This document shows positions 24,203 to 51,861 of a stretch of DNA of 64,000 nt, piece by piece. The stretch is from Cytidiella melzeri. Its lineage: Eukaryota; Basidiomycota; Agaricomycetes; Polyporales; Irpicaceae. Within the stretch, counting starts at the first letter, position 1. Each line of letters begins with the position of its first letter. The notes beneath the pieces were generated by a model. It made no database searches and had not been told where the DNA came from. It was given only the letters and a program-made list of their open reading frames with translations. Position numbers and translations under genes: made by a program. The stretch is taken from the NCBI GenBank assembly GCA_022592445.1, contig JABYQR010000166.1:1-64000 (forward strand), written 5' to 3'.

Positions 24203-27151
24203 TGCCTGCTTCCACGTCTGTGGATATTCATTGATTGAATAAGCAGTAATTGAATTAAGAGTCTCATCATCAATTTCTGCAGAATCATCATATCAGTTAA
24301 GCCTCCTGATAGAGTTTGATGTTCTGGACCCGGTTCAACGGAAGGTGATCTCGAGGGTTGACGTGATGACGTTCCTGATCGCAAAGGTATCCGTAATCTG
24401 GATGGCCCTGCAACCGGAGATCTTGCGCGTATTCTCGAGTTCCAGTCAGCTCTCAAACGAAGCTCATTTTGTTCTTCCTTTTTGTCCTTAGCCACTTGCT
24501 TTTCTAAAGCTTTCTGCATATCCGCCGGCCGCATGGAAAGTTTAGGATTTTTTCCAGCAGTTGAACGTTTGTTCTGGTTGATAGGTGGTGGCAAAGGTGG
24601 TTTAGGCTTAGGTCCTCGTTTGATTTGTGGTTGTGGTTCTTTGTCAAGAACCGGAGCTGAAGGGAATTGCTGCTGTTGTCGAGAAGGATGAGTAGGTGCT
24701 TGGTGCTCTGGATGATCATCATCTCCATCATCAGAATCTTGGTGACCTTGTTCATCATTCTCTTCAAAAGGTGAAAAATTATCGTGTGGAGGAACAGTGT
24801 TATTATCACTGTTATCGCCGACTAAAGGTTGTTTGGAAGGAGTAATATCTTTACATACGGGAAATGAGTCTCGTCAAATACTGCATCGCGAGCAATGACG
24901 ATTCGCTGTTTATCCCAGAACCGGTAACCCTTTACACCCGGTTCATATCCAACGAATATCATAGGAGTTGCTTTTGGTGACAACTTGTTCTGACGACTCT
25001 TGATCGGTACATGGACGTATGCACGACATCCAAATACACGAAGCATTGAGATATCTGGTTTTATACCCAGAAAACTCTCTATAGGTGTCTGCCAGTTTAA
25101 TCGTACATTAGGTAGACGGTTATTTAAATATACCGCTGCTTCGCAAGTAAGCTTCCAGAAACCATTTGATAACCCAGCTTGCTGACGCAATGCTTCGGCT
25201 TTATATTTTATGGTCTGTTGCCATCGCTCAGCTCTACCATTTTGTTGTGGAGTATACGGTACAGACATTTGTAATTCTATTCCGTGTTCCTTCAGATAAT
25301 CCTTGAACTCATTATTAATGAACTCTGTTCCACCATCGCATCTGAACTTCTTCATCTTCTTTCCTGTTTGGTTTTCGGCCCATGACTTGTATTCTTTGAA
25401 TCTTGTGAACACTTCATCTTTGTGCTTGAGATAATAGAGCATCCCATGACTAGAAGCATCATCAAGACAAGTCATACCGTATTTGTAACCATCAATAGAA
25501 GTTGTAGAATATTCAATGAGATCGGAATGAGTTAATTCAAGGACTTCTGTAGCTCTCGACATAGATGGTGGAAATGGTTGTCTCTTTCCTTTTCCAACTT
25601 GACATCCGTGACAAGGAGAAATTGTCGATGGAATAGGAATCTTTTCTTTTAATCCCTTTGTTCCTTTGTGAAGATTTTCGACAATCTTATTCCCTGGGTG
25701 TCCTAGTCGATTATGCCACAACGTATAATCATTACGACTAACTTTATTAATTGAGTCTATCTTCCTGACTAGACGTCCTTTAATCCAATAAAGTCCGGCA
25801 TGATCAGGTTGACCATTTATAATCTCTTTTCCTTCATTATAAATTGTCCATCCTTTCGATGTAACACTGCTAGTGCATCCTTGTTGCAGTGCTCTAGAAG
25901 GAGAAAAGAATCTTGTAGTCGCATCTGGTATATAGAGGACATTGTTCAAAGTTGTGCGATGTATTTTATCTTTCACAAGGATCGTGTCAAGTACGACCGT
26001 TCCTTTTCCCAATATTTTGACAGTCATATCTTTACCTGCTACAGAGCATGTACCTGCTACCGTTGCTGGTTGATACGAGATAAAGTCGTCAATTTCATTG
26101 GTAATGTGACTAGTAGCACCACTGTCGATGAGCCATTCAACGCTTTCAGTCTCACACGTGGAATAAAGAGAAACGTTGATGATTTCATTATCGTGCTCGA
26201 AGACAGGTTTGGTATCTACTTGAAGATTATTTACAGTCGCTTTGTCTTTGCCTTTGCCTTTGGACTTCTTTCGTTGTCCTCCTTTCTTTCCTTTATTCTC
26301 CTTGTTACCCTGCTTGTTGTTGGTAGAAGATCCTTGCTGATTATTTCCATTACCACGAGACTTGTTCTGGTTAGGTTTCCCTTTATCCCAGTGCTGACTC
26401 GTAGTATGGTTAGAAAGCCCACACTTCTTGCATTTTTCCTTCGGTAAACGCGTGGTCTGCGTAATCCGATTCGCATTTTCACTGTTTGAACCCTTTCGAC
26501 GTAACTCTTCCGCAAGTATCTTGGGGATGAGCGTGTCAAACTTAATTTCTTCGGGTTTTGCAACAGTGCCAATGTATGCAGAAATGGCGGTTTCATATGA
26601 CGTTGGTAAAGCCCACAAAAGAATATGAACTTTAATTTGATCATCAAGGTCTAACCCAGCAACTTTGGTATCTCCAATCTTAGTACGGAAGCCTTGAATT
26701 TGTACGTTCATATCCTTAGACTCATCAAAAGTTGAGCTAAGTAGGTTTCTGAACGCAACAGAGCTTGCTAAGACTGATGTCTTTTCAAATCTGTTTTCAA
26801 TTTCTTCCACACTTCGGAGGCCAAATCCTCTCCTTCAAGATAGGATTGCAAAGTAATGTCAAGGTAAATATTGAAATAAGCTAAAGCGCGTTGGTTCCGA
26901 ATTTCCCAATCCTTAAGTTCCTTCTTCTCATCAGAAGTGTCAGGAGGTGCAGTAGTCGTACCAGAACCTGAACTGGTAGCTGCTGCAGGTAAGGTAGGTT
27001 TCTTTTCGGTTCCATTCACGATTAACCAAGTGTTTGAATATCTGAACAAGCCAATCATAGCGGTGGACCATTTCTTGTAGTTTGAACCGTCAAAGACAAT
27101 CATTTGACTACCGCTAATCTTTCCTGGTTCAGCCATTATAACCAAAAGCAA
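24199..27151 (-). pseudogene. C1 gag, protease and integrase
   Basis: A UBN2-type gag starts at 27136 or 27151 (IVFDGSNYKKWSTAMIGLF) and shifts frame at about 26800. The zinc knuckle CKKCGLSNHTTSQHW is at about 26400. The protease active site is WLIDSGATSH at about 26130. The GAG-pre-integrase segment contains LWHNRLGHPGNKIVENLHKG. The integrase core has HSDLIEY, RCDGGTEFINNEF and PYTPQQNGRAERWQQTIKYK. A long low-complexity linker (24820-24200) leads to RT and contains frame breaks. Confidence 0.87.
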
Positions 27152-27665: not shown

Positions 27666-29877
27666 TTCGGAGTTTGTACACGATAATGAAGCCAGAGTAC
27701 AACGTTACAAACTATGTAAAGAAAAGTCATAAAAATTTGTCAGAATGCGCTACGTGATGGTTGTGACTCGAAGCAGAACAAGAGAGAGATACTGTCCCTC
27801 CATGTATGGTGGCAACAGCCAGCCAAGCGTGACACAATTTTTTGGCGCAGAGTTAGCAACCAGTGTGGGGTTATGCGTGACGGTTGCCAGAATTAGCAAC
27901 AGGCCGTCATTGACGGTGACGTCGGCCTCTACCAACTCGGGACCGACAGGGTGCAATCCCTGGCCGGACAATTAATTTTATTACCGTAGTCCGTGTTCAA
28001 TGAAGAAAAAATTCTAGGTCATCTACTCTCCCCTAACAGTCTCTACGGCATGACTCAGAAAAAATCAACAAAGAAACAAGAGGGACCTCCACAGGCTCTC
28101 ATATCTCGCATTACCTTCCTCCAAAAGCTGCTCACAAAACTCCCTGACACATTGCCTCTCAACCCCGACACGTCTTTGTACAATTTCTCGATCGACTCTG
28201 AGAGTATTAAGGAGTTCGGGGCACTCGGCGCCTTCTCCAAAACCATGGAGACATGTTTTGAAACGTTCAAGCGTCGTGATGGTGTCATTGAGTTCACGGA
28301 ACGAGGGCGGCGGCTGGAGAAGGACTTGATTGGGGTGATGAAGGTTGCCGTGAAGGAGATGTCGGATAAGGACCGGGAGGTTTTCCAAGAGGCATGGCTT
28401 GAAAGGTTGATCAAAACAGCTGAGAGGAATGGCGTGAAGGTCGAATGGAAGAAGCGGAAGAATACTGATGATACGAGAGCAGCCGACGCTACGAGTGCGC
28501 CAGCCGCTGATGCTGCCGTCACGCAGCCTCTGCAGAAAAGACCTAGGACAACCGAGTCAGTGATCATCACTGTTGACTCGGACACAGATGACGCACCCAA
28601 TTCATTGTCGATCACCAGGACCCCCTCTATACAGCAAACACGCACCTCTACTCCCGCAACATCTGGTCGAGCCACACATTCACCTTCAGGGGTTAACCAA
28701 GACCTCCAGCCATCCCAGCCTCGCACACAATCCGGCTTAAAGCAAGCTTCCTTGGCCGGACTATGGAGGCCGCTGAAAGATTGGTCTGCAGAAGAGCGAG
28801 AGGCGCTACAGCAGCGTGAGCGCGACAAGGAAAGGGTGGAGCATACTCTTGCCACGGAACGGGAGGAGGACCAGCGAAAGTGGAAGAAGGAGCACCAAAA
28901 GGAGCTCGCACGAGAACGCCAGCGAAGGCACCGTGCCAAACGGGCAGAGGAGAAGGAAGGCGACATGGGGATGGATTCCAACAATGTCAACGACGTCTTG
29001 ATGCAAAACAGCGCCAATCTTGCTAGCGAGTCACCTGGCTTGGATGCTACTGATCTCGCAGAGCTATCGCGGCCTGGGAAAGAGTCGTGGCATCAGTTGA
29101 GGAACGGGAAGCTTGGGGGTACGAAGCAGGCGCGAGCAAAACGTACCAACTGGTTTCATCCATTCCTCTGGGTGCATATTGATTCTGCGATGCGGCGAGG
29201 TGACTGGAGCCCGGCCGCTGCAGCACGCATCCTCCAGCGCGAGCACGAAAAACTATTCAAGAGCATCACGCGCGCGACGGTGTGGAAGTGGAAGGCCAAG
29301 GGTTTGAACAAATGGTCTGATCGGACCACCGAAAACCTCAAGCGGCGACATGCGTTGGCCGGGACTGGGCGAGCTGGCATTCTGGCAAAGCACCCTGAGG
29401 TTGTAACGGAAGTCAGCACGACATTGCGAAATCTCCGGATCTCTGGCATACCTATCAATGTTTGCATCACTCGCTCCATTATGCTCGCAGTGATCAACAA
29501 ACGCCAACCCGAAATACTCTCCCCGCGCTTCCAATGCTCCGAGAAATACGTACGCACATTTCTCCAGAGTGTCATGAACTACACTCCACGTCAGGCTACG
29601 CGCGCTGCGGCGCACATTCCGCCAGATGCTGCCGATGTCTGCGAGCGCACATTCTTTTGCCTCGTATATGCGATGAAATGGGAGAACATCCCGGCATGCT
29701 TGACCGTGAACGTCGACCAGATGGGCATGTACATTCTGCCGAGCAACAGCCGCACATTCCACAACAAAGGGGCCAATCAAGTCGATGCTGTTGCGAAGGA
29801 TGAGAAGCGCGCATACACGTTGTTGGTGGCAAGCACACCAGCTGGGGATATTTTGCCCTTCCAGCAGGTCTGGGGAC

Positions 29878-30135
29878 AGGCTCCTACCCAGCCGCCCTCT
29901 CGAGCGTAAGAGGACTTGTCTCGAGGAAGTTGACCGATACTGATACATAAATAATTGTTTTATGACATATGCCAGATATAGACATGCATCAATGTTCCTA
30001 AGCTTACTAATTGACGTGATTATATAATAATATTACCAAAAAAAGAAATGCATCAATATTTTCAACCTTAATCCTCATACGCTCGATAGGACGGCTGGCA
30101 CCAAACACAAGTAAACAGCGGGCACCGGAATCGTA
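29878..30135 (+). repeat. Left terminal inverted repeat of RecQ/DUF6589 element
   Basis: It pairs with 38037-38302, roughly three quarters identical. It contains its own inverted pair (29889-29914 against 30073-30098, about 26 bp each), so the terminus can fold into a stem with a loop of about 160 bases. The middle is AT-rich. Confidence 0.88.
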
Positions 30136-30248
30136 AACGCTCAAATTCTTCCTTTTACAGCTGCATCACCGCCGTGCATCACCGGCGTAAGCTGCTGCTC
30201 GGTCCTCAATAAAAATGAACGCGAGGCGACTTTTTTTAGTGCACCTCA

Positions 30249-32726
30249 ATGTTGCGTCCGTCGCGTGCAAGAAAGCTGTGTCCGGAAATTCCCAGTCTTG
30301 AAGTCATTCGACGAAAAGGCGAAGGTTTTTTTGGCTGCCGGCCGTGTCTTTGGCAGGCAGAGCTGGACCAGGCTATCCTCGATGGTACCAAGGATGTTGT
30401 CGCGGTATCAGGTACAGGGTCTGGCAAAACACTCACATTCTGGCTGCCCCTGCTATTTTGCCCGGAAGGTATTCAAATTGTTATCACCCCTCTGAATATT
30501 CTTGGCGCTCAGAACAGGGACCAATTGGAGGCTAAAGGAATCAGCGCGATAGCCATCGACGCGCAGAATATGTCATTGGAGGTCATGCAGGTATGTCATA
30601 ATTAATGTCGAGATAATATGACACGCTTTCATCACTTACATAGAACATCCTCACGAGGAAATATCGCGTCATTATTGTGAACCCGGAGATAGCGCTAGCC
30701 TGAGGCGGAAAATTTGAGAAGCTCTGGAAGGACGGCGACTTTGTCTCACATATCATCAGTGTTGTTTGGGACGAAGCGCACTGTGTCAGTACCTGGGGAA
30801 AGTTCCGGAAGGAGTACGCTGAGGCCGGACGCCTGCGCAACCTGCTTGTGGAGAGAGTTCCTTACCTGGTCGTCTCCGCTACATTTCCTGAACAAATTAT
30901 GAAAGACGTTATGAGTACCCTCAAAATGGACCATGATAGAACGAAATACATCCAGCGATCAAATGACCGGCCAAATGTTTACCTCAGTGTCCACCGAATT
31001 CGCCACTCGCTGAAGAGCTTCAAGGATCTTGAGTTTCTTGTTCCAAAAAACTGGAAGTCCGGGGACAAGACTCCGAAGTTTCTGATCTTCTTCGACAGTA
31101 TTCAGGAGTCGGTCGATGCGGTGAAGTCTTTATGGCCGAAGATGCCATCGGAAATCCGAAATCGTCTAGTGTGGTTCAACTCCGACATGACCAAACAGTA
31201 TTGTGAGCTCACCACGCGGCAGTTCAAAGGAGATGATGGCCCGTGCTGCCTCGGCTGCACAGACTCCTTTGGATTAGTGAGTAGCGTGCATCAAAATTAA
31301 AACAAATCTGACACAACATCTAGGGAGTCGACATACCGGATATTGGTTTTGTTGGCCAATGGCGAGCAACGTGCGATATGGATACACTTTGGCAGCGGTT
31401 CGGCCGCGTCGGTTGTGGTCCAGGTACCGAAGGAGTCGCTGTTCTGTTTGCGGAGGGTAAACATTTCGACGACATGAAAGAGAAAGCTGCGTTAGCTGCT
31501 GAAGCAAAGAAAAAAGCGCAAGAGGCTAGAGCAAGCGAGGCGGAGAAACGAAAACGAGGATTGAATGCAGCCGGATCAAGAAAACGTGCACGCACCGATA
31601 ATTCGCCAGCACTACCTCCGAGCACAGACAACAATGAAGAACGTAATAGTCTCGCAGTGATTGATAGCCTCTCTGTGCATGAGGAGCTCAGGGTTCAGTA
31701 CCGACAGTCCCTCGCAGATCAGAAGCAAAAACAAAGTAAAACAAAGAAAATAGCGGGCAATACAGCGCAGCTCCCACCGGGGATAGACAACATCATCAAC
31801 GCTGCAACACGTCCCTTCAATTGCCACCGAGTTCCCATCGCTGCTTACTATCAGAACGATAGAAGATGTAAGTAGCGCTCAATAACTCACATCTCGTGTG
31901 TCGTACTTACCTAAACAGTGCCCGATCATTCTCACTGTGCCCCTGGAATTCCCGCCGGATGTGGCCGCTGCAACTTGATCATGTCTACCACCTGCTGCAA
32001 TCTATGCAACGCCAAATCCGACCATCCCAGCGATATTTTCACTCGCTTCATTCCTCCTCCACCAGACATGGCATCCGAGGCACCTCCAGTTCGACCAGTC
32101 ACTACTCGCGTGTCTCGGCTGTCCAAGTTTGACGCGACGACATCTGACTACGCTCTCCGGAAGAAACTCGACGACTTTCGCTGCGCAAGAATGCAAGAAC
32201 AGTATGGCTACGCCATCGCACTCAACTTAGGGCCAACCGAGATAATGAGCGACGAAGATCTCGAGCGCATTGCATCTTGTGCACGGTCGAAGAAGATCGG
32301 GTCGGTGGAGGATATACAGAGAGAGGCTCCGAAGTGGCGAAGAGCGCAGGAGTATGCCGGAAGTGTGCTCGAATTACTGCAAAGGTACGCTGCCTGTAAA
32401 GATTCGAAACCACTTCATCAGCTTACGCATCAGTAGACATTACCCTATCACCGACCTCTACGCTGTTATGCCACTACATCAACGCCAGCTTACCACGCCA
32501 CTCGATGCAAGTATCAATCGCAACTTACAGGCAGGAGCGAAGAAGACTATGACATGCGGAGCATGCAAACGACAGGGGCACACCCGTAAGTCATTTACTG
32601 TGCTCACGAGCGAACAACTACTAACTATGCAAGCTCTACATAGGACGGAGTATTGAGTGCCCTATGAAAGGACAAACTAGTGCAAGTACGATGGGTACAA
32701 ACAAAGAGAACACTTCAAACGCGTAG
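30249..32726 (+). pseudogene. RecQ-like DEAH helicase, six exons, one internal stop
   Basis: Exons inferred from GT-AG sites: 30249-30590, 30644-31276, 31324-31867, 31919-32384, 32434-32585, 32644-32726, giving 740 codons in frame. Helicase motifs in order: GTGSGKT (Walker A), VVWDEAHCVSTWG (box II, RecQ style), VVSATFPE, FLIFFDSIQ, GLGVDIPDIGF, LWQRFGRVGCG. After the core come a charged nuclear-localisation-like stretch, a Cys-rich cluster (HCAPGIPAGCGRCN) and a C-terminal knuckle (CGACKRQGHTRRSIEC). A TGA lies at about 30700. Motif VI has GRVGC where the family usually has an Arg. RecQ enzymes unwind DNA 3' to 5'; here it may process transposition or replication intermediates. Confidence 0.85.
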
Positions 32727-32731
32727 GTTGA

Positions 32732-35433
32732 TTATAGTGCTCCCTCCGTGGCTAGATCTCGCGCGCTGACCGCATCTGTTAGTCCCCAATAGTCTTCGTC
32801 GCCCACTCCTCTCCCCCCTTCTTTTTCAATCTCGCCCCACATCTGCTGCTCATCATCATCTACCATGGGTTCATCGTCACGTACTACTGCGGATTCCGCG
32901 GTAATAATCGCTGCACTGCAATCTAGTGCATTGGGAATTTCATATTTTGCTTCTCGTCCTGCGCGGTATTTGTTCGGACTCTCTTCCAGACCTTGTATAT
33001 ATTGCTGAACGTCATTGAAAGTTGCAGTCATGTTTTTCGTGCCGTGTGCATAGCTAAGACCAGAAAGCAGGAAGTTCTGTTCAAACACGCGGTGACAGTT
33101 TTGGTAAATCAATACCAGCGCCGATTCGTCCAGAATACGGTTTGTGGTGTAGTTTGACCCTTCACCGCCATACATCTCCTTGATAAACAGGTTCAGCAGC
33201 TCGACCACCCAATCTACCGCGCGGAAATGATGGGCGCGCCCAGTCGGATTAACGAGCATATTGTACCGGACGGCACGTCTAGTGCATGACGGTAAGCATT
33301 TGTGACCTCGCCTTTGATTACCAGGAGTACTTACCTCAATCCGACTGGGTACACATTATACAGCTGATGCATAAACAGTAGCATTCAGTTCGCATACTTA
33401 TGCTTGCCCACAGCGCGGAAAATCTGGATCCACGGTGGGAACATTGTCTCGAGACGGCCGATATCGCCTGCATTCATACTATATGATAGCTCCTCATATA
33501 GCAGTAAGTAATGATGAGTTCGCATGGTGTTTTCGTGCTGCTTATCGCGTTGCGCCGCTGATCTGTTCTTCATCTGGTATAGATTTGTGCCTTCCCCTTC
33601 CACGTACTGGGTCACAAGTTGCGCGGCAACTTTATCTATGGCTTCAAGAGTCGGTTTCGCCTCTGCCCATTTTTCCAAGGTCAGATAGCCGTAACGTCGT
33701 GCTTCGATACGCCATGCATCCAAACGAAGCACTTCCCCCACATGACCGATGAGTTCGTGTTGCTCACGGAACAAAGCATTATTGGTGAGTTTTCCCGAGC
33801 TTGCTGGTCGTAACTTAGTGACAAAAGCCATAAAACTAGACGTGTCTTTTCTTGCTGAATCCGGAGAGACTAATATTCGCCAGATAGCATCCGCAGCTGC
33901 CATCTTGAAATGGAAAAGGCCGAAGACAAAAACAACAAATTGCAGCCAAGAAGTAGGTGTCAGATCAATGGCTCGTCTTTCCATTGCGCTGATCACCCGT
34001 TCCATCGTGCCTAGATCTCCGTGAATGAGCTGAACCATGTCTCCAAGGTCCGTCATATCAACACTCGTTTCTCCTTGTGCATCTGCCTCTCCGACGCCGG
34101 CTTGAGCAAGCATATCCATAAGCACATCAATATTGCCAGATACCGTCGACTGGTTGATCTTCATCGCCTGCAGCGGAACCTGATGTGCTCGACGGATGGG
34201 AATTTGCTCGACAGCATCTGGAGCGGTAAGTGACTCTCTTAAATCTCTAAAGTATTGCGGCCTGTATTCAAATAAACTCTTTTTGAATAGGTATGCACGG
34301 AATAAGCCTCGTCGTGTCAGACGATGAGCGTCCGGATTCCGTGCTTCAAAATGCAAGGTATTCAGAAACTTCATAGTCGCGTGAGGGTGGAACTGAATAG
34401 GATTTGACGCATTAGGATTGTTCGGATTCTTCTCCCAGAGATTGTGGCCGCAACGGAGATTGTGCGCTGTAACACCGTGCTCTAGGCGAATTAGAGTGCC
34501 GGATGTCAAATGAACCAACGTATCCTGCGGCCCCTCTACAGTTGGAATTCCGGTGGAGAACTTCACGTCGAAGTTGTCATACGCATAAGACACCAAAAGT
34601 GTACGTCCTAATGTTCTGATATCTGTGAAACATTCTGACTTCAAAGAGTGGATCGCCCGATGTATCGATGTCAACGAGACGGAAATGCCCATGCGCGTGA
34701 GGACCTTGACGACCTTCTCGGGCGTATTGCACGAGTGAAGAAAAATACCCATAACACTTTGAAGTGCGTTACATTTCCGGTAACGAGAGTGTAGTAGCTG
34801 ACTCAGGATAGTAATAGTCTTCTAATGATATCGAGAGGTAAGTATGTCTATCTCCGGCGCATGGTCATACAAACTTACTATCTCCTTAAACGCACGCGGT
34901 CGGCTGCCACGCATCTTAGCCCACGGACGTTCATCGTCAACCATCTCATCCTCCGACTCGTCATCCACTGTCTCCTCTTCCTCAGAGTCTTCATCGCTGT
35001 CCCTCCCTCCAATAGGCTTCTCGTCGCTGGCTGAGTTGTCTCCTGTAACCAGACGATACACTAAGGACCACAGCATCGGCTGCTGTTCCCACATCTTCAT
35101 CGCCATTTCTTCCATACGGAACTCCCGGATTTGGTGCGGCTGCACGTGGAGAATATTGAAGTGGAGATCGCGATTGTTGTGTGATAGATCGTGTAGAGCA
35201 GATGAGTACTTTGCTGTCATACAGTCATGCGCCCACGAGACAGTGGTACTCTGACATTCCGGGCGATGATAGATCACCCCATGAGTTTCTCTTGCTCGCG
35301 CAATGAGATCCTGCAGCAGGAAAGGAAAGGGATGCTGCAAACCTTGGTGAAGCAAGACCGAGGTGGTGAGATCAACCAAGCTGATTCTGTGGCGCTCCAG
35401 ATGGACCAGGATCTCTCGAATGGCTGTGGCCAT
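32732..35433 (-). pseudogene. DUF6589-family protein, candidate DDE transposase, one internal stop
   Basis: Exons 35433-34879, 34821-33335 and 33278-32732 give 863 codons in frame. Family features: NALQSVMGIFLHSCNTPEKV, GISVSLTSIHRAIHSL, then YAYDNFDVKFSTGIPTVEG, IHGDLGTMERV, and at the C-terminal part YNMLVNPTGRAHHFRAVDW and ELLNLFIKEMYGGEGSN. An acidic low-complexity tract lies at about residues 145-170. A TGA at 33385-33387 breaks exon 2. The stop of the helicase gene lies five bases from the stop of this gene. No function is established for DUF6589 to my knowledge. D(FD), D(GDLGT) and E(IKEMYG) could form a transposase triad; that is inference. Confidence 0.82.
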
Positions 35434-35723
35434 GGTGGTAAGTGATTCTTACTTTGCACGCGGTACAATGATAATGAATTACGCAGGCGTCGCGTGACCT
35501 TCTTGCAGTATTGGTGTGTCACAGGGAAAGGAAAGAATAATATATAACTAATTACTGAGACAAGTAGGAAAAAAGCGGACACCTCCATTGTGTAGAGTAG
35601 GCTAATGATTACGTTGTAGAGTACAAATAAAGCTTACGAAGTAAAGGGGAGAAAGGGGAGGGACAAACGTTAGTAGCGGCGCGCGCTACACATGCTGCGC
35701 CACCAAGCTGATGCCGGTGCTCG

Positions 35724-38024
35724 ACTAGCGTTAGCAAGGCCGGCAAGCAGCAAGTACAATTCCTGAAGATTGAATGAGATATAACTTTTTGAGCCAGATT
35801 TGTAAACAAACTTGCTCCTGGTAGCAGCTTGACTAAGTCATTTTGTTGTGAATAGCTTCTTTGATGAGGAATGTATTGTAAGTGGGTGGTTTGTCTTTAC
35901 TGGAGCACACAATCATTCAGGAAAGGAGAAGGACTGTGCTGTATTTTTTGAAGTGAAACAATGGGTGTGAGTACAGAATCAAAACAAGTTTGTGGAGTGG
36001 AGCGTAGAGATAAAGATTGTTTGAAGTGTGTCTTCTTCGTAATTGTGTTGAACTACATCAAGTAATCTAGATACAATCTGTGTAAGCTGCAGGAGCAGGG
36101 TTACAAGTGATTATGTTATTGATAGCAAATTGAATAAATCATATAGCATGAAATAGTTAATTGCACCTGTGACTTTGTTACTAAATTTACTGTATAACGG
36201 GCATTTGCTATTGGTGACACCTTTGATAGGCAACTTGATCCGGGATACAGTGACTGTACTACAATTGATAAGTTTGATTGCAGGAAAAGGAGCCATACAT
36301 TGATGAAGGTAGTCACCAATGGTGGGAAGGGGCTTCATCTATCTTGTCATTAAACTTGTGCAGTGCTCACTGCTGATTCTAGAAAATTACTTGCTTCCAG
36401 AATGAAGGGCTTAAGGGTGTCTCATTAGATCAATTGCTAGAACATGTTACATGTGTTCTGTTGATGTCTGCACTGCCTCACCCCCATCAGAGCTGCCACA
36501 GGCTGTGTTCTGAGTGTAACTCCTGCTTATAGAGCAACTGGTGGTTGTGAAACTGTATGGAATAATGAAAGGCAGTGCTTTATGCTGATGAAACCACATC
36601 CTGTTGATGTCTGAACTGCTTCAGCCCCATTAGAACTGCCACAGGCTATGTTCTGATTTTGATTCCTCCTTAGAGAGCAACTCATGGTTGTGAAACTTTG
36701 TGCAACCATGCGACACAGTGGTTTTGGCTGATGCAACCATGTTCTGTTGATGTTAGAGCTGCATCACCCCAATTGGAACTGCAACAGATTGTGTTTTGAT
36801 TGTAACTTCTGCATAGAGAGTATTGGTTGTGAAACCTTGTGAAGCAATTGAATGCATTGCTTGCTGCCAATGCAACCATGCACTGTTGATGTCTGAACTG
36901 CCTCACCCCAATTTAAATTGCCACAGCTGTCACTCCTGCTTGGAACTCAGTGGTTGTGAAACTTTGCGGACCAATTGAATGCAGTGCTGGCTGCTGATGA
37001 AACCACATCCACCTGATATCTGTGCTACCTCACCCCCATCAGAGCTGCCACAGGCTGTGTTCTGACTGTAACTCCTGCATATAGAGCAACTGGTGGTCTT
37101 GAAACTGTACGGAAGAATCAAAGGCAGTGCTTTATGCTGATGCAACCACATCCTGTTGATGTCTGAACTGCTTCAGCCCCATTAAAACTGCCACAGGCTA
37201 TGTTCTGATTTTAATTCCTCCTTAGAGAGCAACTCATGGTTGTGAAACTTTGCGCAGCAATTCAACGCAGTGCTTGCTGCTGATGCAACCATGTCCTGTT
37301 GATGTCTGAACTGCCTCACCCCCATTGAAACTGCCACAGGCTGTGTTCTGATTGTAACTCCTGCTTTGAGAGCAATTAACAGTTGTCAAACTTGTGGAAC
37401 AATCAGATGCAGCACTCACTGCTGCCACATCCACAAATTTACATTGTCCAAAATGTAGGGGTTGAGAATTTGTAGTTAGCTTCCAAAGTACTGGAAATTC
37501 TTGGTCAGAGCCAATACTATGTGTGGCATGTCTTCTAATAGTATTCCTTGTTCAGAGAGCAAGCAATGTCTGTAGATTGCTGCACATGTACCTGACCAGA
37601 ATTTGACATTATTTGCCAGCAGGAGTGGAGTTTGAACCTGAGTCTGGATGACTTTTTTCAGTAGACTGGCCATAACTTGCTCAGTTCCACTTCAATTGGC
37701 AGGATGTTGGTACCAGGATGTTGCCACAGGATAGGGCTATCCAAAGGTGTATTATATGCATAGATTTGTACCCATATGCAGTCTATAAAAATCAAAATTT
37801 GCATTTTGATTGCAAAAGTAATCTGATACAAAGTTATAAAGAGCTGATAACAAGGCCAGTGTGATGCCATGAGCTGTATTCATTGTTTTGTTATTGACAC
37901 TATTACTGTCTGTATTCTGCCATCAAATTCCCACACTTTGGGGGACAAAAAGGTCACATCTGAAAAGACATCAATGTGCTGGAGCACACTGGAACAATTC
38001 TTCTTCATTCTTCAGGAATTGTAA
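35724..38024 (-). mobile_element. E1 repeat element, copy 2, inverted
   Basis: On the minus strand it starts at about 38024 (TTACAATTCCTGAAGAATG) and ends at about 35725 in CTAG, with the same tail and GC-rich hairpin as copy 1. It contains the same internal landmarks, including a shared non-functional 65-codon frame (37673-37476). It lies between the DUF6589 start and the right terminal repeat. No target duplication is visible. Confidence 0.75.
36440..37400 (-). repeat. Tandem repeat array in E1 copy 2
   Basis: These are units related to the 143-bp units of copy 1 (GTTGATGTCTGAACTGCCTC on the plus strand), here about six and all diverged from one another. The homogenised core seen in copy 1 is missing, so the array in copy 1 expanded after the two copies separated. 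Confidence 0.85.
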
Positions 38025-38036
38025 TTTGGGTGAATA

Positions 38037-38302
38037 TGGCGCCTGTCACTCCGGAGCCCGCTGTTTACTTGTGTTTGGTGCCAGCCGTCCTATCGAGCTT
38101 GGTAGGAATAAGGTTGAAAATTTTGATCGCGCTTCTATTTATGGTAATATAATTAGATAATCACATCAGTTAATAGTAATATTATTAATCAGTTATCTCT
38201 ATATTCGGTATATCTCATCGCACATTTAGAACATATCATCTTCCGTCAACTCCCGCGAGACGAGTCCTACCAAGCTCGATAGGGCGGCTGGGTAGGAGCC
38301 TG
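38037..38302 (-). repeat. Right terminal inverted repeat of RecQ/DUF6589 element
   Basis: The inverted counterpart of 29878-30135. It holds the same subterminal pair, 38081-38106 against 38266-38291, complementary at 25 of 26 positions. It ends GGAGCCTG at 38302 and is followed by the duplication GTCTGGGGA. Confidence 0.88.
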
Positions 38303-39672
38303 GTCTGGGGAGGGAAAGTGGCGAAATCGTTGCCGAGCCCTCAGGCATCGGGGATGGAGGAAGCGCTTGCACGTGGGTTTCATTTTGCACTAGCGGCAAG
38401 TGAGAGCAGTCCATGGAGCCATTTCAGCACACTCAAAACGATGAAGGAATGGATTGAGAATATCCTGGCTCCTTACCGACTGGGCGTCCTCGAGAGAGAT
38501 GGGCTTGATGATGACCAGCCCATGATATTATACATTGATTGTTATCCAGTCCATGCCGGCGAGCCTTTCCGAGTTTATATCTGGGATACGCATCCATACA
38601 TTATTCTCATCTTCGTACCCCGAAACTGCACGCCTATCTTTCAGCCCGCCGATGTTGGCCTTCATCGTCCCGTCAAGCATATTCTCAAGCAAGAGTTGTT
38701 CCAATATCTCGCAAACGTACATCAGGCACAGATGGAGACGGGATTGAAACCTGAAGACGTCCGCATTACAATGTCCCTTCCTCAGCTTCGAGATGCTTCT
38801 GTTGCTGGACTTGTGCGTGCGTACAATTTTCTCAGTGGCCCAGATGGCCGCGATCTCATCAAAATGGTTAGTTCTTGTATTCTATTAAAACCTCTCGCGA
38901 CGCTAATAAACCGCTTGTTTAAGTCCTGGAGGAAGTCCAAAGCAAAGGAGTGGTGCCTTTCTGAAGAATGTCTTACCAGTAAAGCTGCTCGAAGTGCTTT
39001 GAATGACTATCTCAAACGCGACCCCTCCTTGCGCGACGAAATCGAAGCTCGACTCGGGACTGTTCGGGGCCTGGATGACACTCAGCCAAGCGATGAAAAC
39101 GAGATCGATCACTTTGTCGATGATGATAGTGATGTTCCGCTATCCGCTGTGATCAATGAGACTGTTGGTCAGAGGGTCAGCGAGCACACAGAGCGGGCTA
39201 TGTTCACAGTAAACTCCATCACTCGCGGCGATGCCGGGTTGGGGCTTGTTGCAGCGGGGCCAGATGAGGATGTTTGGCAATTTGATGATGAGGGTCAAAG
39301 GTGGATTGACACTGGTGAGTTACCCGCGGAGGAGGTGGACAATGATGGTGGAGATGACGGAGATAATGAAGAAGAATAAATTAGAGTATTTTACTGAATT
39401 TTACCGAATTTTTTCGCCGCTTTCACTGTCACGCTTCTTGTTTAGCAACGCGCCCCGCGTTATGCGTTACCTAGCCTCGAATTAGCAACGTAACAAGCCC
39501 TGCGTTATGCGTGACCGTTGCCACCATACATGGAGGGACAGTAGAGAAAGTATATACAAGTACACTACGGACTACGCTAATGAAAATGACCGTTTGTAAA
39601 AGTATAAAGGTACACATCGCGATATTTTATAGTATACAGTGCGCGGTATAGTTCGATTTGCAGAGAGTCCGT

Positions 39673-42665: not shown

Positions 42666-45600
42666 AGTCCGACGTCACTATGCACATAAGTACTTCGCTT
42701 ACCACTACTTTTCCTACTCTACTTCCACTATATGCAACTTCGTCGACAGACGAGTCAATACATATTCTTGGTACTGGCGCAACTATACACTGTACGCCAT
42801 ATCGAGACTTACTTTTCAATGTTCACTCCGTACCAACTATTGTACTGACTGTTGCCAACTCAGAACAACTAGTTTTGAAACTTGCTGGTGACATGGTACT
42901 CGAGGTGGAACAGGAAAATGGTAAGCTTACTGAACTCTTGCTGAAGAATGTCTACTTCAACTCAACTCTACCTTTTACTTTAATCAGCATTGGAAAACTC
43001 TACTCTGATTATTGGTTTACGTTCTATCATGGACTTTGTACTATATACGACTCCAACTCGACTTGTGTGGCTGTAGTTAGAAAATCATCGAGTGACTTCT
43101 TTAGCAAGCGTGCATAGAACTGGCATTACTTTACTTGAACTACATAAAAAACTCGGTTATCTCAGTTACTTCATGATCAAGAAACTACTTCAAACTTCGT
43201 CAATTATTACTGATCATATAACTGACCATACTGAAACTCCGTGCGAGGACTGTTTACTTAACAATATCCATCGCAATACTGTACCCAAACTTCGTTCTTC
43301 ATCGTTAGCTGAAGCTTTCGGAGATCACTTCCATATTGACATCTTTGGGCCTCTACCCACAGCGTTGATTACTGGTAAACACAAATACTCGTTGAATATC
43401 GTCGACGATGCTACTAGATGGTTAGTACTTGCACCACTAGTTACTAAAGATGACACCTATACTCAATGGGTCATTTTCTCTACTGAACTTTTGATGCAAT
43501 ATGGTATTCGTGTCAAGATACTTCAAGCCGATAACGACGGTGTCTTTACCAGTAAAGCTATGACTGCTTACTTGAAAACTCAAGGAACTATACTACGTCT
43601 TACTGTACACAATACTCCTCAGCAAAACGGTGTTGCTGAGCGTGTACATCAAACTATTATGAACTTGATTCGAGTAAACCTGCATACTGCATCTTTACCA
43701 AATTGACTATGGTGGTACACTGCATTATACGCAATGTATGTGTACAATTGTTCTCCTCGTACTATACTTAACTACAAAACTCCTTACTTTAAGCGATATG
43801 GCACAGACGCTAACCTTGATGGACTTCAAGTCTTTGGTCAGCCGTGCATCGTATATGACAAATATCACACAAACAAACTAGCATCTAAGGGTAAAAGGGG
43901 AGTCTGGATAGGCTTTGCTGAACACTCTAAAGGTCACTACGTTTACTTCAGACAATGTGTCGGAGTTGAACATCACTTGCAATTCGTTGACTCTACAATA
44001 CAAATTGAAGGGGAGAAAGAACCAAATGTTGAGAAACTTACTGTTGAAAAACAACTTGAACTTGAGGACAACCCTCACATAGAACCAATGGAAATCGACA
44101 AGCCTGACCCTACTGGTCCAAGGCGTTCCAACAGAACTCCTCAACTATCGCGTAAAGCTCGTGGTCTAAACTACGACGAAGTAGACACTAACATTGCTTT
44201 CTACTTAACTGAGTTTAACGCTTACTATGCTGAGGACGTCGGTGATCCTGTCACTTTCAAAGATGTACTTAATCACCCTCTCAAAGACGATTGGTTTAAG
44301 TCTATGAAACTTGAGGTTGATACACTAGAACAACTTGGCACTTGGGAATACTGTATCCCGCCGCCAAATGCCAACGTTACTGGTTCTTGCTTCGTCTACA
44401 AGACTAAGTACGAACATGGGAAAGTTACTAAACTCAAGTCAAGACTTGTTGCGCAAGGATACTCTCAGCGCGATGGTATTGATTACTATGCAATCGACTT
44501 GTTTGCTCCAGTCGCGCGCATGAGTTCTATGCGACTCATACTTACACTTGCGGCTTCACTACACTTCGAGATTAACCAACTCAATGTTAAGTCCGCTTAC
44601 TTATACGGTAAGATTAACAATGATGAAGATCTTTATCTTTGTCCGCCGCCTGGCAACTTACTGCGCAACTTGCCTAAGGGCTGGGTACTTAAACTACGCA
44701 AAACTATCTACGGCCTTAAACAAGCCGGACGTTGCCGGTACAAGGTACTATGCGGTATACTTTTCCAACTTGGACTCAAGCGTTCAGACTATGATAACGC
44801 TGGCTTCTACCTTTACAGGGGAGACAAACTAATACTTATACTCACTGTTCATGTCAACGATATTACTCTCTGTACTATTACTTCTGTTGTCGCTGAACAA
44901 TTTGAGATAGCACTTAGACAACATGGCGAGGTAACAAACGGTGGCACTATCCACTGGATGCTTGGCATGAAGATCAATTACGACAAAGCCTCTGGTATTA
45001 TCAAGCTTTGTCAACACAATTATATCCAAACTATACTTAAACAAAACAACTTTGACCACAATCATACACGCTGTACGCCTATGATACACGAGCACAACTG
45101 AGCCCCCCTGACTCGAAAGAACCTCGTCAGGACGCTGACGCTATTGAACAATACATGTCTTTTGTCGGTGGTTTACGATACGTCGCTAACTGTACTCGAC
45201 CAGATGTTGCATACTGCACTGGTCAACTTGCACGGTACTTAGCTGACCCTTCTAAGGAACACTTCGCTGCAGCTAAACAGTGTTACCTATACTTGAAGAG
45301 AACGTGCAACTACTGGCTTGTCCTAGGAAACCAAGCAACTACTACTAATACTTCACTTGTCGGATACGCTGATTCTGACGGTATGACTACATACGGCAAT
45401 AAACCAATAATGGGCTACACCTTCACATACAATGACTTGCTTATCTCTTGGTCAAGTAAGCGCGGTTCACTTGTAACACTATCGGTCACTGAAGCCAAAC
45501 TATATGCCTTAGCGCATGCGTCAACTGAGGCTATATATTTAAAAGCCCTCATTGATGAACTACTTAAGTTTACTATGGATCCTGTCAAAATGTATACTGA

Positions 45601-46603: not shown

Positions 46604-49600
46604 TAACAAGGTATCAGGAGAGTTGAGAGCGTTGAGAGAGAAGACTGAGGTGGTGGTCACACAGAGAGTTGGGGATCAAAAGCGATAGCAGTGCATTGAT
46701 CAAAGTAAGTCTTATATACGGTAACTACGGCGCTAAGCGCGCGCTAAGTAGTACGAAGACAGAATAGTTAAACACTCCCCTTCAAGCCTGAACATGAAGT
46801 AGTTCATTGAAGTGCTTGAGTTTTTAGAGAGGTAGTGCTTTAGTAAGAGTATCAGCACGTTGATCGGCAGAAGGTACGTGGTGCACAGTGATGTACCCTT
46901 TAGTTACACGATCGCTGATGAAGTTCTTGCGAATGTTAAAGTGTTTAGTACGTTGAGAGTGTTGTTCCTCGGGGGAACGAACAATCGCAAGAGTTGACGC
47001 ACTGTCGGTATATAGTTTGACAGGGTCCATAGTGCAGTTAAGTATTTCATCTATGAGGCTCTTCAAATAGATGGCCTCTGTGGACGCATGAGCGAGTGCG
47101 TACAGTTCGGCTTCGGTGACCGATAAAGTTACAAGTGAACCACGCTTACTTGACCAAGAGATAAGCGAGTCGTTGTATGTGAAAGTATAGCCCATTATTG
47201 GTTTATTGCCGTACGTAGTCATACCATCAGAGTCGACATAACCTACGAGTGAAGTAGAAGTAGGGTTGGCTTGGTTTCCTAGGACAAGCCAGTAGTCGCA
47301 CGTTCCCTTGAAGTAAAGGTAACACTGTTTAGCTGCAGCGTAGTGTTCCTTAGCAGGGTCAGATAAGTATTGTGCTAGTTGACCAGTGCAATAAGCAATG
47401 TCTGGTCGAGTACTGTCGGCGACGTAGCGTAAGCCACCAACAAGAGACATGTAGTGTGTAATGGCGTCAGCGTCCTGACGTGGTTCGGTCACAGCACGGG
47501 GGGCTAAGTTGTGCTCGTGTACCATTGGTGTACGGCGTGAATGTTTGTGGTCAAAGTTGTATCGCTTAAGTATGTTCAGGATATAATCCCTTTGACGAAG
47601 CTTGATAATGCCTGCGGCTTTATCATAAGCAACTTCCATGCCAAGCATCCAGTGGATAGTTCCACCGTTAGTAAGTTCGACGTGTTGTCTGAGTGCAATC
47701 TCAAATTTTTCGGCAACAGTAGTAGTGATAGTGCCAAGAGTAATGTCATCGACATGGACAGCAAGTAGAAGTATAAGTTTATCACCTTGATAGAAGTAGA
47801 AGACTGCATTGTCGAATTCACAACGCTTCAGTCCAAGTGCGAAGAGTATGTCGCATAGTACTTTGTACCAACGACGTCCGGCTTGCTTAAGGCCGTAGAT
47901 AGTCTTCCGAAGTTTAAGTACCCAACCAGGTGGCAGGTTTGGAAGTAAGTCACCAGGAGGTGGACGAAGATAAAGGTCTTCATCGTCGTGGATGTTACCG
48001 TATAAGTATGCGGACTTGATATCAAGCTGAGTGATCTCGAAGTGTAGTGAAGCCGCGAGAGTAAGTACAAATCGTAGTGAACTCATACGCGCAACAGGTG
48101 CGAATAAGTCGTTCGAATAGTAATCAATGCCGTCACGCTGGGAGTATCCTTGCGCAACAAGTCTTGACTTAAGTTTAGTGACTTTGCCATGTTCGTATTT
48201 TGTTTTGTAGACAAAGCGCAAACCAGTGATGTTCGCATTTGGCGGCGGGATACAGTATTACCAAGTGCCAAGTTGTTCGAGGGTATCAACCTCAGTTTTC
48301 ATCGACTTGAGCCAGTCAATTTTGAGTGGGTGGTTAAGTACGTCTTTGTAAGTAACTGGATCACCGACGTCTTCAGCGTAGTATGCGTTGAATTCAGTCA
48401 AGTAGAAGGCAATGTTTGTATCGACTTCATCATAGTTTAAGCCTCGAGCTTTGCGCGAAGGCTTAGGCTCTCTAGTAGTACGCCTAGGACCAGAAGGGTC
48501 AGGCTCGTCGATGTCCATGGGTTCAACATGAGGATTCTCCTCGAGTTGAAGTTGTTTTTCAAGAGTAGGTTGTTCGATATTTGGTTCTTTCTCCCTTCAA
48601 TTTGTGCCGTAGAGTCAACAAATTGCAAGTTTCGTTCGACGCCTACGCGTGTTCCGAAGTAAACGTAGTGGCCTTTGGAATATTCAGCAAAGCCTATCCA
48701 AACGGCGCGCTTGCCTTTTGGCGCGAGTTTATTGGTTTGGTATTCGTCGTATACGATACACGGTTGACCAAACTTTTGAAGCGCATCAAGGTTCGCTTCA
48801 GTACCATAGCGTTTAAAGTAAGGAGTTTTATATTGAAGAGGAGCACGAGGAGTGCGATTATAGAGATAAACCGCATGAAGCGCAGCGTACCACCATAACC
48901 AGTTTGGTAAAGCAGCTGTGTGTAGGTTTACACGAACCAAGTTCATAATAGTCTGGTGTGTGCGCTCAGCAACACCATTTTGTGCAGGAGTATCGTGCAC
49001 AGTAAGCCGGGGTATAGTACCTTGTGACTTCAAGTAGTTTGTCATATTTGCACCAGTGAATACGCCATCGTTGTCAGATTGAAGAATCTTGACGCGAATA
49101 TTGTATTGCGTAAGAAGCTCAGTAGAGAAGATAACCCATTGAGTGAAGGCATCATCTTTAGTTTTTAATGGCGCAAGTGTTAACCATCGAGTTGAGTCGT
49201 CGACGATAGTCAACCAGTACAGATAATGACCAGTAATCGACGCAGTGGGTAGTGGCCCAAAGATGTTGATATGAAAGTGATCACTGAAGGAAGTAGCCAA
49301 CGGCGAAGTACAAGCTTTGGGGACTGGAGTACGATGAATATTATTCAAGATACAGTCCTCGCACGGAGTTTCTGTGCGGTCAGTGATATGAGTAGTAATG
49401 ATAAGTTTGGACGTTTCAAGTAGTTTGTTTATCTGGAAATAACTGATGTGACCGAGTTTTTTATGAAGTTCAAGCATCGTTATACCAGACTTATGCACGC
49501 TTGCTAAAGAAGTCACGCGAGTAGAGTTGAGTGAATACAAATCGTGTATTTTTCGTATCACAGCTACACAAGACGTGTTCGAGTCATATATAGTACAAGT

Positions 49601-51861
49601 ATTTGAAAAGAAAGTAAAGCGATAGTCAGCGTCCAATTTTGAAACACTGATAAGCGTAAAGGGTAGTTGTGAGTTAAAGTAGACATTCTTTAGCATAAGT
49701 TGATTATGCGTACCATTTTCTTGTTCAACCTCCAGTACCATGTCGCCGGCGAGTTTGAGACTTATTTGCTCTGAGTTGGCGACAGTAAGTAAGATAGTCG
49801 GTACAGAGTGAACGTTGAAAAGTAAGTCACGATATGATGTACAGTGTATAGTAGCACCAGTATCGATGACATGAATGCACTTGTCAGACGACGAAGTTGC
49901 GAACAGTGGAAGTAAAGTAGAAGAAATGGTACGAGGACTTACGTGCATCGTGACGTCCGAGTTGGAAACAGACTTCACCCACGCGCTTGGGTGAGGATTC
50001 TCGAGGACCTCTTCGTCCGAGTCAGCAGCGGCAGTAACGTTGGCCATGAAGCCAGTAGCAGTGGAAGAGCCGGCAGCGGCGGACTCTTTCTTCTTGCCTT
50101 GAGCGGCGGCAGCAGTGGATTTGCGAGTGATGCCCTTCTTTTTCATCGCAGCTTTGGACTTCTCAGTCCAGGGCAGAGGGCAAGTCGGCGTCATGTGGCC
50201 AGGCTGACCACAGTTGAAGCAGTTGCCCTGACCAGAAGTGGAGGGCTTGCTCGACGAGTAGGGGGCTGCAGCCGCGCGAGCAGTAGTGGTAGTTTTGGTC
50301 GAGCGTTCGACCGCGGCCTTGCCCTTGGCGTGCGAAGCCGAAGGAGCGTGAGCTTTGTCTTTTGGGACGAAAGTGGTAGGCCCCTTGGACTCGGAAGTCT
50401 TTGGGGGGTGCGTGAGTCGCCAGTTGGTGAACTCGCGACGAAGCTCAGCAATGAGTGCGTTGGGCCTGTAGCGGAACTTTTCTCCAGCCGGAGTAGAAGA
50501 ACGTACGCCAACCTCGTAGTTTTGGCGCATAGCAGCGTAGGCTGGAGGGATGATCCCGACAATAGCAGCGTAGAAGATATGGTCGGGGATGTCGACACCA
50601 GCAGCAATAAGCTTGCTGCAGATATTGGTGGCGTCGTCGAGCAGCTTGTCCATCTCATAGATAGGACGACGAAGATGGAACAGCTGGTAAATTTCGTTTG
50701 CGTCAGACACAGTGGTCTTCGGATCGTAACGTTCACGCAGCTTGTCCATGAGTACGTGGGGCTTGTACTCGTTTAGATAGTTAGCCATGACCGAGTCAGA
50801 GATATGACCGGTCAGGACGTTGAAGACAGCCCGCGTAACCTCTTGAGGTACGGTCAGGCCACCTCGGAGTGTATGAAACTCCAGTATGGTGGACATAGCG
50901 GTCTCGACACGGAACTTCCACATTGGCCAAGTCTCAGCCCCAGTAAGCTTGCCAACATCAGAGAAGGCTTTGTTGATGTCGCTGAGCGACATAGTGAAGT
51001 TGTTGTTGTGGCCAGGTGGCACAGACAGAAGTTGCAACACTTCGCGTGTCGACCTAGTGCCTATGGAGCTAGGCGGAGGAGGCGGCGGCGAGCCACCAGG
51101 AGAGCTGCCCGGAGGAGGGGGAGTCGTCGGACGGCGAGCAGGACGCTTCTCACGTCGTCGTCGAGGCCTCTCATCCTCATCCATACGGTCGTCGTCACTG
51201 TCATCGTCTCCTCCATGAGGGTGACGACGGCGATCATCATTGCGAAGAGTATCGAAGGGGGTGCAACGGCGATCAGCTGGGGGAGCAGAGACATGGCGAG
51301 CACCTGGGATTGCCTCACGATCCTCAGAGCTAGAAGAGTGGTTGTCGTTGTGACTGGGTTGGGGTTCAATGTCAGGGACGTTAGAGTTGGATGGTCCAGC
51401 TGAGGGAGCATTGGTTTTTGTGATAGTGGTGGCAGACATCGAGGGAAGAGGTGTAGTAGGAGCAGGAGAGGGAGTAGGAGTGAAAATGGGAGTTGTCCTG
51501 CGAGTGGTGGTTGTTCTTTGGCGGGGTTGAGCTCTGGTACCCCTAAGGAAGTTGGTTTGGTGACGCTCTCTAGTGGAGCGACGAAGTTGAGCTTGATCAG
51601 CGAGATCAGAGCTCATAAACAGAGAGGAGTAGGTGTAAAAGTGAAGTAGAGTGAAGATATGAGCTTTAGGCGGGGCTCATAACCTTTTTTTAACAAGGTA
51701 TCAGGAGAGTTGAGAGCGTTGAGAGAGAAGACTGAGGTGGTGGTCACACAGAGAGTTGGGGATCAAAAGCGATAGCAGTGCATTGATCAAAGTAAGTCTT
51801 ATATACGGTAACTACGGCGCTAAGCGCGCGCTAAGTAGTACGAAGACAGAATAGTTAAACC
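46604..51861 (-). mobile_element. Ty1/copia retrotransposon C3, minus strand
   Basis: 171-bp LTRs lie at 46604-46774 and 51691-51861. Gag-pol lies between them in one main frame. The primer site GGTTATGAGCCCCGCC lies inside the right LTR (about 51668-51683 on the plus strand, reverse). Flanking 5-mers do not match, so one end may be rearranged. It is of the C2 family but much better preserved. Confidence 0.87.
46824..51616 (-). pseudogene. C3 gag-pol polyprotein, one frameshift and one stop
   Basis: About 1590 codons. Gag: MSLSDINKAFSDVGKLTG and the knuckle CFNCGQPGHMTPTC (about 50210). Protease: HVIDTGATIHC, active Asp present. Integrase: HFHINIFGPLP, LQSDNDGVFTGA, TPAQNGVAERTHQTIM. A frameshift lies at about 48590 and a TAA at 48257 (a Glu codon in C2). 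RT follows from 48221 with LLAVHVDDITLG. RNase H has GYVDSDGMTTYGNKPIMG and ends at 46824. It would encode all copia functions if not for the two lesions. Confidence 0.9.

Follow-up and report, generated by a model that had tools for sequence, protein, structure and literature searches.

The 64,000-nucleotide window analysed here (positions 1 to 64,000 of contig JABYQR010000166.1, assembly GCA_022592445.1, of the basidiomycete Cytidiella melzeri) contains an 8.4-kb insert spanning positions 29877-38302, which carries a RecQ-like helicase gene on the plus strand and a gene of the Pfam family DUF6589 on the minus strand, arranged convergently (tail to tail), and which is most likely a copy of an AcademH-type DNA transposon. 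The inverted ends of the insert (CAGGCTCC...GGAGCCTG) comprise a left terminal repeat beginning with CAGGCTCC (29877-30135, plus strand) and a right terminal repeat finishing with GGAGCCTG (38050-38302, minus strand), which are 78% alike across 256 aligned columns and open with the identical 12 bases, CAGGCTCCTACC; an ungapped repeat finder reported three inverted arms of 78, 69 and 43 nt between them. Comparison of the flanks identified a perfect 9-bp target-site duplication, GTCTGGGGA, at 29868-29876 on the left and 38303-38311 on the right. Elsewhere in the genome, the matches listed include a single one per flank, in both cases on contig C9, where they overlap by exactly 9 bp; the joined flanks align to C9 gap-free with 97.9% identity over 565 bp and GTCTGGGGA is present once at the junction, so that C9 shows the empty site directly. 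Ends, duplication and empty site together support an earlier reading of this DNA (the original prediction), which had proposed a mobile unit with defined inverted termini of about 260 bp and a 9-bp duplication, and whose right boundary at 38302 was retained while its start at 29878 was moved one base outwards.

The insertion lies in a transposase-like open frame on the plus strand, the 5' part of which (27990-29876) has no Pfam match and the 3' part of which continues in the same frame (38312-39376) and matches DDE_1 at 20.9 bits, under the cut-off of 22. Once rejoined, the frame has zero internal stops, which, together with the empty site on C9, upholds the exact interruption that had been proposed; the name pogo given to the interrupted frame goes back to a label and to the sub-cut-off DDE_1 match.

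The helicase gene (30249-32726, plus strand) was read as six exons encoding 738 amino acids, the exon structure being inferred by hand with five short introns with GT...AG ends, and the reading holds one in-frame TGA at codon 134. Its product matches DEAD and Helicase_C (PF00270 and PF00271) above cut-off as well as a CCHC zinc knuckle, its best NCBIfam match is TIGR00614 (recQ_fam; E-value 1.7e-38, 132.6 bits, below the family cut-off of 219.8) and the solved chains nearest to exon 2 alone are those of WRN, RecQ, RecQ5 and BLM. At E <= 0.1 the helicase gave no match to an RQC, HRDC or RecQ zinc-binding domain. The DUF6589 gene (PF20231; 32732-35433, minus strand) was delineated by hand as three exons with two introns, encoding 862 amino acids; the PF20231 match covers two of these exons and the reading holds one in-frame TGA at codon 664. 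As each of the two genes thus contains an in-frame stop, the window copy is probably inactive alone. The Pfam matches bear out the two-gene content of the element as first described, and no nuclease family was found among those of the helicase and DUF6589 genes.

Two further searches concern the helicase. A plasmid search with a piece of the protein returned 11 records with weak partial matches, of which the five listed comprised RecQ or DEAD helicases and one unannotated place. In a genome search with TIGR00614, 32 RecQ-family matches were listed (best 30 of 184 candidates scored), among which only C87 lay above the family cut-off, and the listed places, except C87, C668 and C68, recur among the matches of the transposon-type helicase.

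For the role of transposase in these elements, the DUF6589 protein is a strong candidate. A structure model was built for P0008, a DUF6589 protein of the same genome, with a 79-sequence alignment; the model was rated confident and resembled P-element, Hermes, Tn5 and RAG-type enzymes on structure comparison, with transposases and RAG recombinases filling rows 1-35 among the 50 structure matches listed. The nearest solved folds, those of the P element and hAT (Hermes) transposases, nevertheless share only 8-12% identity with the model, and Foldseek by itself gave weak results. A viral structure library gave no match to the model at E <= 0.001, and a PDB profile search with the DUF6589 alignment returned two matches only (E-values of 0.99 and 2), which were regarded as chance. 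The conserved acidic residues of P0008 follow a chain order fitting a DDE (Asp-Asp-Glu) enzyme, with Asp262 on a strand and Asp451 after a strand, and further conserved glutamates (586, 587 and 601) lie on later helices; the candidate DDE site inferred from the model would consist of Asp262, Asp451 and one of Glu586, Glu587 and Glu601. About 20 residues that follow Asp451 in relatives are missing from P0008. Fold resemblance and acidic residues together support, as likely, the transposase role that had been suggested for DUF6589. The low identity to fold relatives in the PDB (P element, hAT and RAG-like enzymes) would also suit an alternative in which elements with DUF6589 and a RecQ-like helicase constitute an independent superfamily outside Academ, with the helicase and the 9 bp in common by coincidence, as would the text searches of the literature, where none of the papers searched named DUF6589 and a single, unrelated one named PF20231. 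This alternative, which we regard as improbable, is weighed further below against the published description of AcademH.

In order to place the two genes in the genome, 120 DUF6589 (PF20231) matches were grouped as 82 clusters, and the 172 helicase matches obtained with two queries (from the window and from a distant clade) as 88 clusters; because the genome searches score the best candidates only, all these totals are lower bounds. A helicase was found within 6 kb of 60 of the 82 DUF6589 clusters, each time downstream on the opposite strand and in no other arrangement, the chance expectation being about 2 such neighbours (estimated at uniform density for 88 clusters in 49.7 Mb). The helicase is thus a regular partner that travels with DUF6589, as had been proposed. 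There were 22 DUF6589 clusters without a helicase and 28 helicase clusters without a DUF6589 partner, some of the latter on contigs ending inside the element (e.g. C636 and C519). Many other mushrooms also have DUF6589 relatives (267 proteins at E <= 0.001, 120 of them listed), and a query of DUF6589 and helicase joined recovered both domains in a single protein, the 1568-residue P0122 of Paramarasmius palmivorus. A search with P0122 gave no additional two-domain protein, so that P0122, standing alone, may be a merged gene model. A second composite, P0121 of Pleurotus pulmonarius, has DUF6589 joined to an F-box-like domain, and both P0121 and P0122 may be merged models or real fusions.

Two families of ends were compared. 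A search with the left end of the window element (family 1) gave 32 genome matches, its own two ends included. The second family was defined on C151, where, in the 8-kb stretch examined, an inverted repeat brackets the DUF6589 and helicase genes of a distant clade; the C151 end sequence gave 37 genome matches and, after outward extension, family-2 ends open with TAGTCTCG or a near variant. Duplications were tested only in elements with both ends, namely 10 of family 1 (among them C195, split by an insertion) and 8 of family 2, with one-end elements left out of the count. A perfect 9-bp duplication was present in 12 of these 18 elements and no other exact length from 6 to 12 was found; the perfect cases were six of ten in family 1 and six of eight in family 2, the other two of which matched at 8/9 and 7/9. 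On whether other copies keep the genes between such termini with 9-bp duplications, the outcome was mixed: six of the 18 (the window, C179, C466, C195, C22 and C151) combine both genes with a perfect duplication, but gene-less copies are common, sequence of both genes being present in 8/10 elements of family 1 and in 2/8 of family 2 (C22 and C151). The other six family-2 elements have no match to either gene, which fits derivatives moved in trans. Ends were examined for a minority of the 82 DUF6589 clusters, of which 10 have a family-1 end match, and 9 a family-2 end match, at a distance of up to 6 kb, so that defined ends are shown for some clades; the DUF6589 stretches L028, L029 and L030 showed no gene-bracketing inverted repeat within 8 kb.

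Short family-1 derivatives include C579, which at 418 bp is hardly more than two ends, and C413 (2.06 kb), which is inserted within the end of another member of the family, also with 9 bp. Both carry perfect 9-bp duplications of their own, as do the gene-less C128 and C263, from which it follows that mobilisation of the ends in trans is feasible; such deleted copies, together with related copies on other contigs, indicate that the family has moved. The same gene-less copies would suit a reading in which another transposase mobilises the ends, with the helicase or the whole gene pair carried between them as cargo. This we consider very unlikely, as the convergent pair recurs in 60/82 DUF6589 clusters, across clades with two kinds of ends, and the predicted fold of DUF6589 itself is transposase-like. 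No duplication was found at C112 and C334. C705 and C15 also lack a duplication of their own, yet the right flank of C705 (L009) and the left flank of C15 (L010) are identical at 9/9 bp (TTGCTCTTC), a common 9-mer that points to exchange between copies or to an assembly mis-join. Of the two ends of the window copy, the left belongs to the C705 type (98%) and the right to the C15 type (94-95%); both end subtypes occur together in C579 too.

A nested 2.3-kb insertion with 143-bp tandem repeats (35725-38024, minus strand) is absent from copies L009, L010 and L011, in all of which positions 35724 and 38024 of the window map onto one and the same base; since this stretch is foreign to the three other copies, the transposon proper is about 6.1 kb long. 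The nested repeat sits between A and T without a duplication, opens on the minus strand with TTACAATTCCTGAAGAATG and closes with CTAG, and has a short subterminal inverted repeat, features that give it the look of a non-autonomous Helitron/Helentron-type element. Other copies of it were found in L010, L014 and L023. Conversely, a copy of the tandem-repeat element in L014 (C179:24200-33400) was the target of a family-1 element, whose 9-bp duplication there is CCTCAGAGA; the nesting thus runs both ways. Copia-type retrotransposon genes (gag, integrase and RVT_2) flank the insert at 24825-26834 (minus strand), 43707-45098 (plus strand) and 46827-51676 (minus strand), and the window as a whole is a nest of transposons.

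In the transposition mechanism proposed for these elements, the DUF6589 protein would bind the inverted ends, cut them via an RNase H-like DDE site (with the candidate residues of P0008) and join them to target strands 9 bp apart, with host gap filling afterwards producing the 9-bp duplication, while the helicase would likely assist by unwinding the ends or the joined intermediate. Each end of the window element, of about 260 bp, contains its own 27-bp inverted repeat with arms 157 nt apart (29888-29914 with 30072-30098 on the left, 38081-38107 with 38265-38291 on the right), and in a family-1 end this inner repeat occupies end positions 11-37 and 195-221. As single-stranded DNA, the left end of the window element gave a better fold than 200/200 shuffles (z -3.66), whereas one family-2 end, over its first 65 nt, folded no better than shuffles (z -0.10); fold-back as an established function of the ends was rejected on this difference, and action of the helicase on folded ends is offered as a guess. 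A bolder account would place DUF6589, as the DDE transposase, in a large lineage of mushroom helicase transposons lying outside Academ, with at least 82 clusters, 60 of them facing a helicase, two families of ends, 9-bp duplications and family-1 ends able to form a hairpin of about 210 nt for the helicase to open; we hold it to be unlikely.

The kind of element described here is probably already known, Kojima having reportedly defined AcademH in 2020 as a group of fungal and animal DNA transposons that encode a helicase and make 9- or 10-bp duplications, and the useful news is the likely role of DUF6589. A Pfam family 'of unknown function' gains a concrete and testable role as the putative transposase of AcademH-kind helicase transposons, and the structure model offers a fold-level view of that predicted enzyme. 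If this is true, many 'hypothetical' DUF6589 genes and the RecQ-like genes adjoining them could be reclassified as transposon rather than host genes. Copies that are complete, deleted or reduced to two ends, with their duplications known, form a natural set for studying the role of a helicase in transposition.

Of the known systems, the P element and hAT transposases, nearest to DUF6589 in fold, make 8-bp duplications and are not known to have a helicase partner. KolobokH, in which a Kolobok transposase is combined with a RecQ helicase, is likewise a helicase-carrying DNA transposon and is described as a lineage confined to fungi; one red-alga Kolobok has its helicase on the complementary strand (PMC9587614). 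That the window element is a KolobokH is nonetheless extremely unlikely and was rejected on duplication length. The helicase of KolobokH is described as lying downstream of the transposase domain, whereas here it is on the opposite strand, and Kolobok is characterised by TTAA-specific 4-bp duplications and 5'-RR...YY-3' termini (PMC9587614), in contrast to duplications of 9 bp and varied sequence and to ends (CAGGCTCC and TAGTCTCG) that start with CA or TA.

Within Academ, AcademH is linked to a helicase with 9- or 10-bp duplications and AcademX to a nuclease with 3- or 4-bp duplications (PMC10045372). AcademX, whose transposase is possibly related, was rejected on duplication length, the element studied here having a helicase and 9 bp. 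Putative non-autonomous Academ elements are reported to be widespread in the mushroom Marasmius oreades (PMC8290104), and AcademH is described as comprising low-copy elements in Basidiomycota, Ascomycota and Mucoromycota (PMC10799480). The low copy number weighs against placing the present elements, with at least 82 DUF6589 clusters, in AcademH, and correspondingly favours the separate superfamily introduced above. That superfamily would have to share by coincidence a helicase, a 9-bp duplication and a host in Basidiomycota, which together match the published description of AcademH (PMC10045372, PMC10799480). On the AcademH reading, DUF6589 would correspond to the Academ transposase. An undescribed transposon type, as first proposed, was dropped as the first choice, a helicase-bearing AcademH with 9- or 10-bp duplications being already in print and reported from Basidiomycota (PMC10045372, PMC10799480). 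The elements agree with that description in the 9-bp duplication, found in every element with an exact one and at the empty site, in the encoded helicase (PMC10045372), here with PF00270 and PF00271 above cut-off, in the terminal inverted repeats of a DNA transposon and in a host, Cytidiella melzeri of the Polyporales, that falls within the reported range (PMC10799480). With duplication, helicase, inverted ends and host range all in agreement, the insert is therefore assigned, as most likely, to AcademH rather than to a new type.
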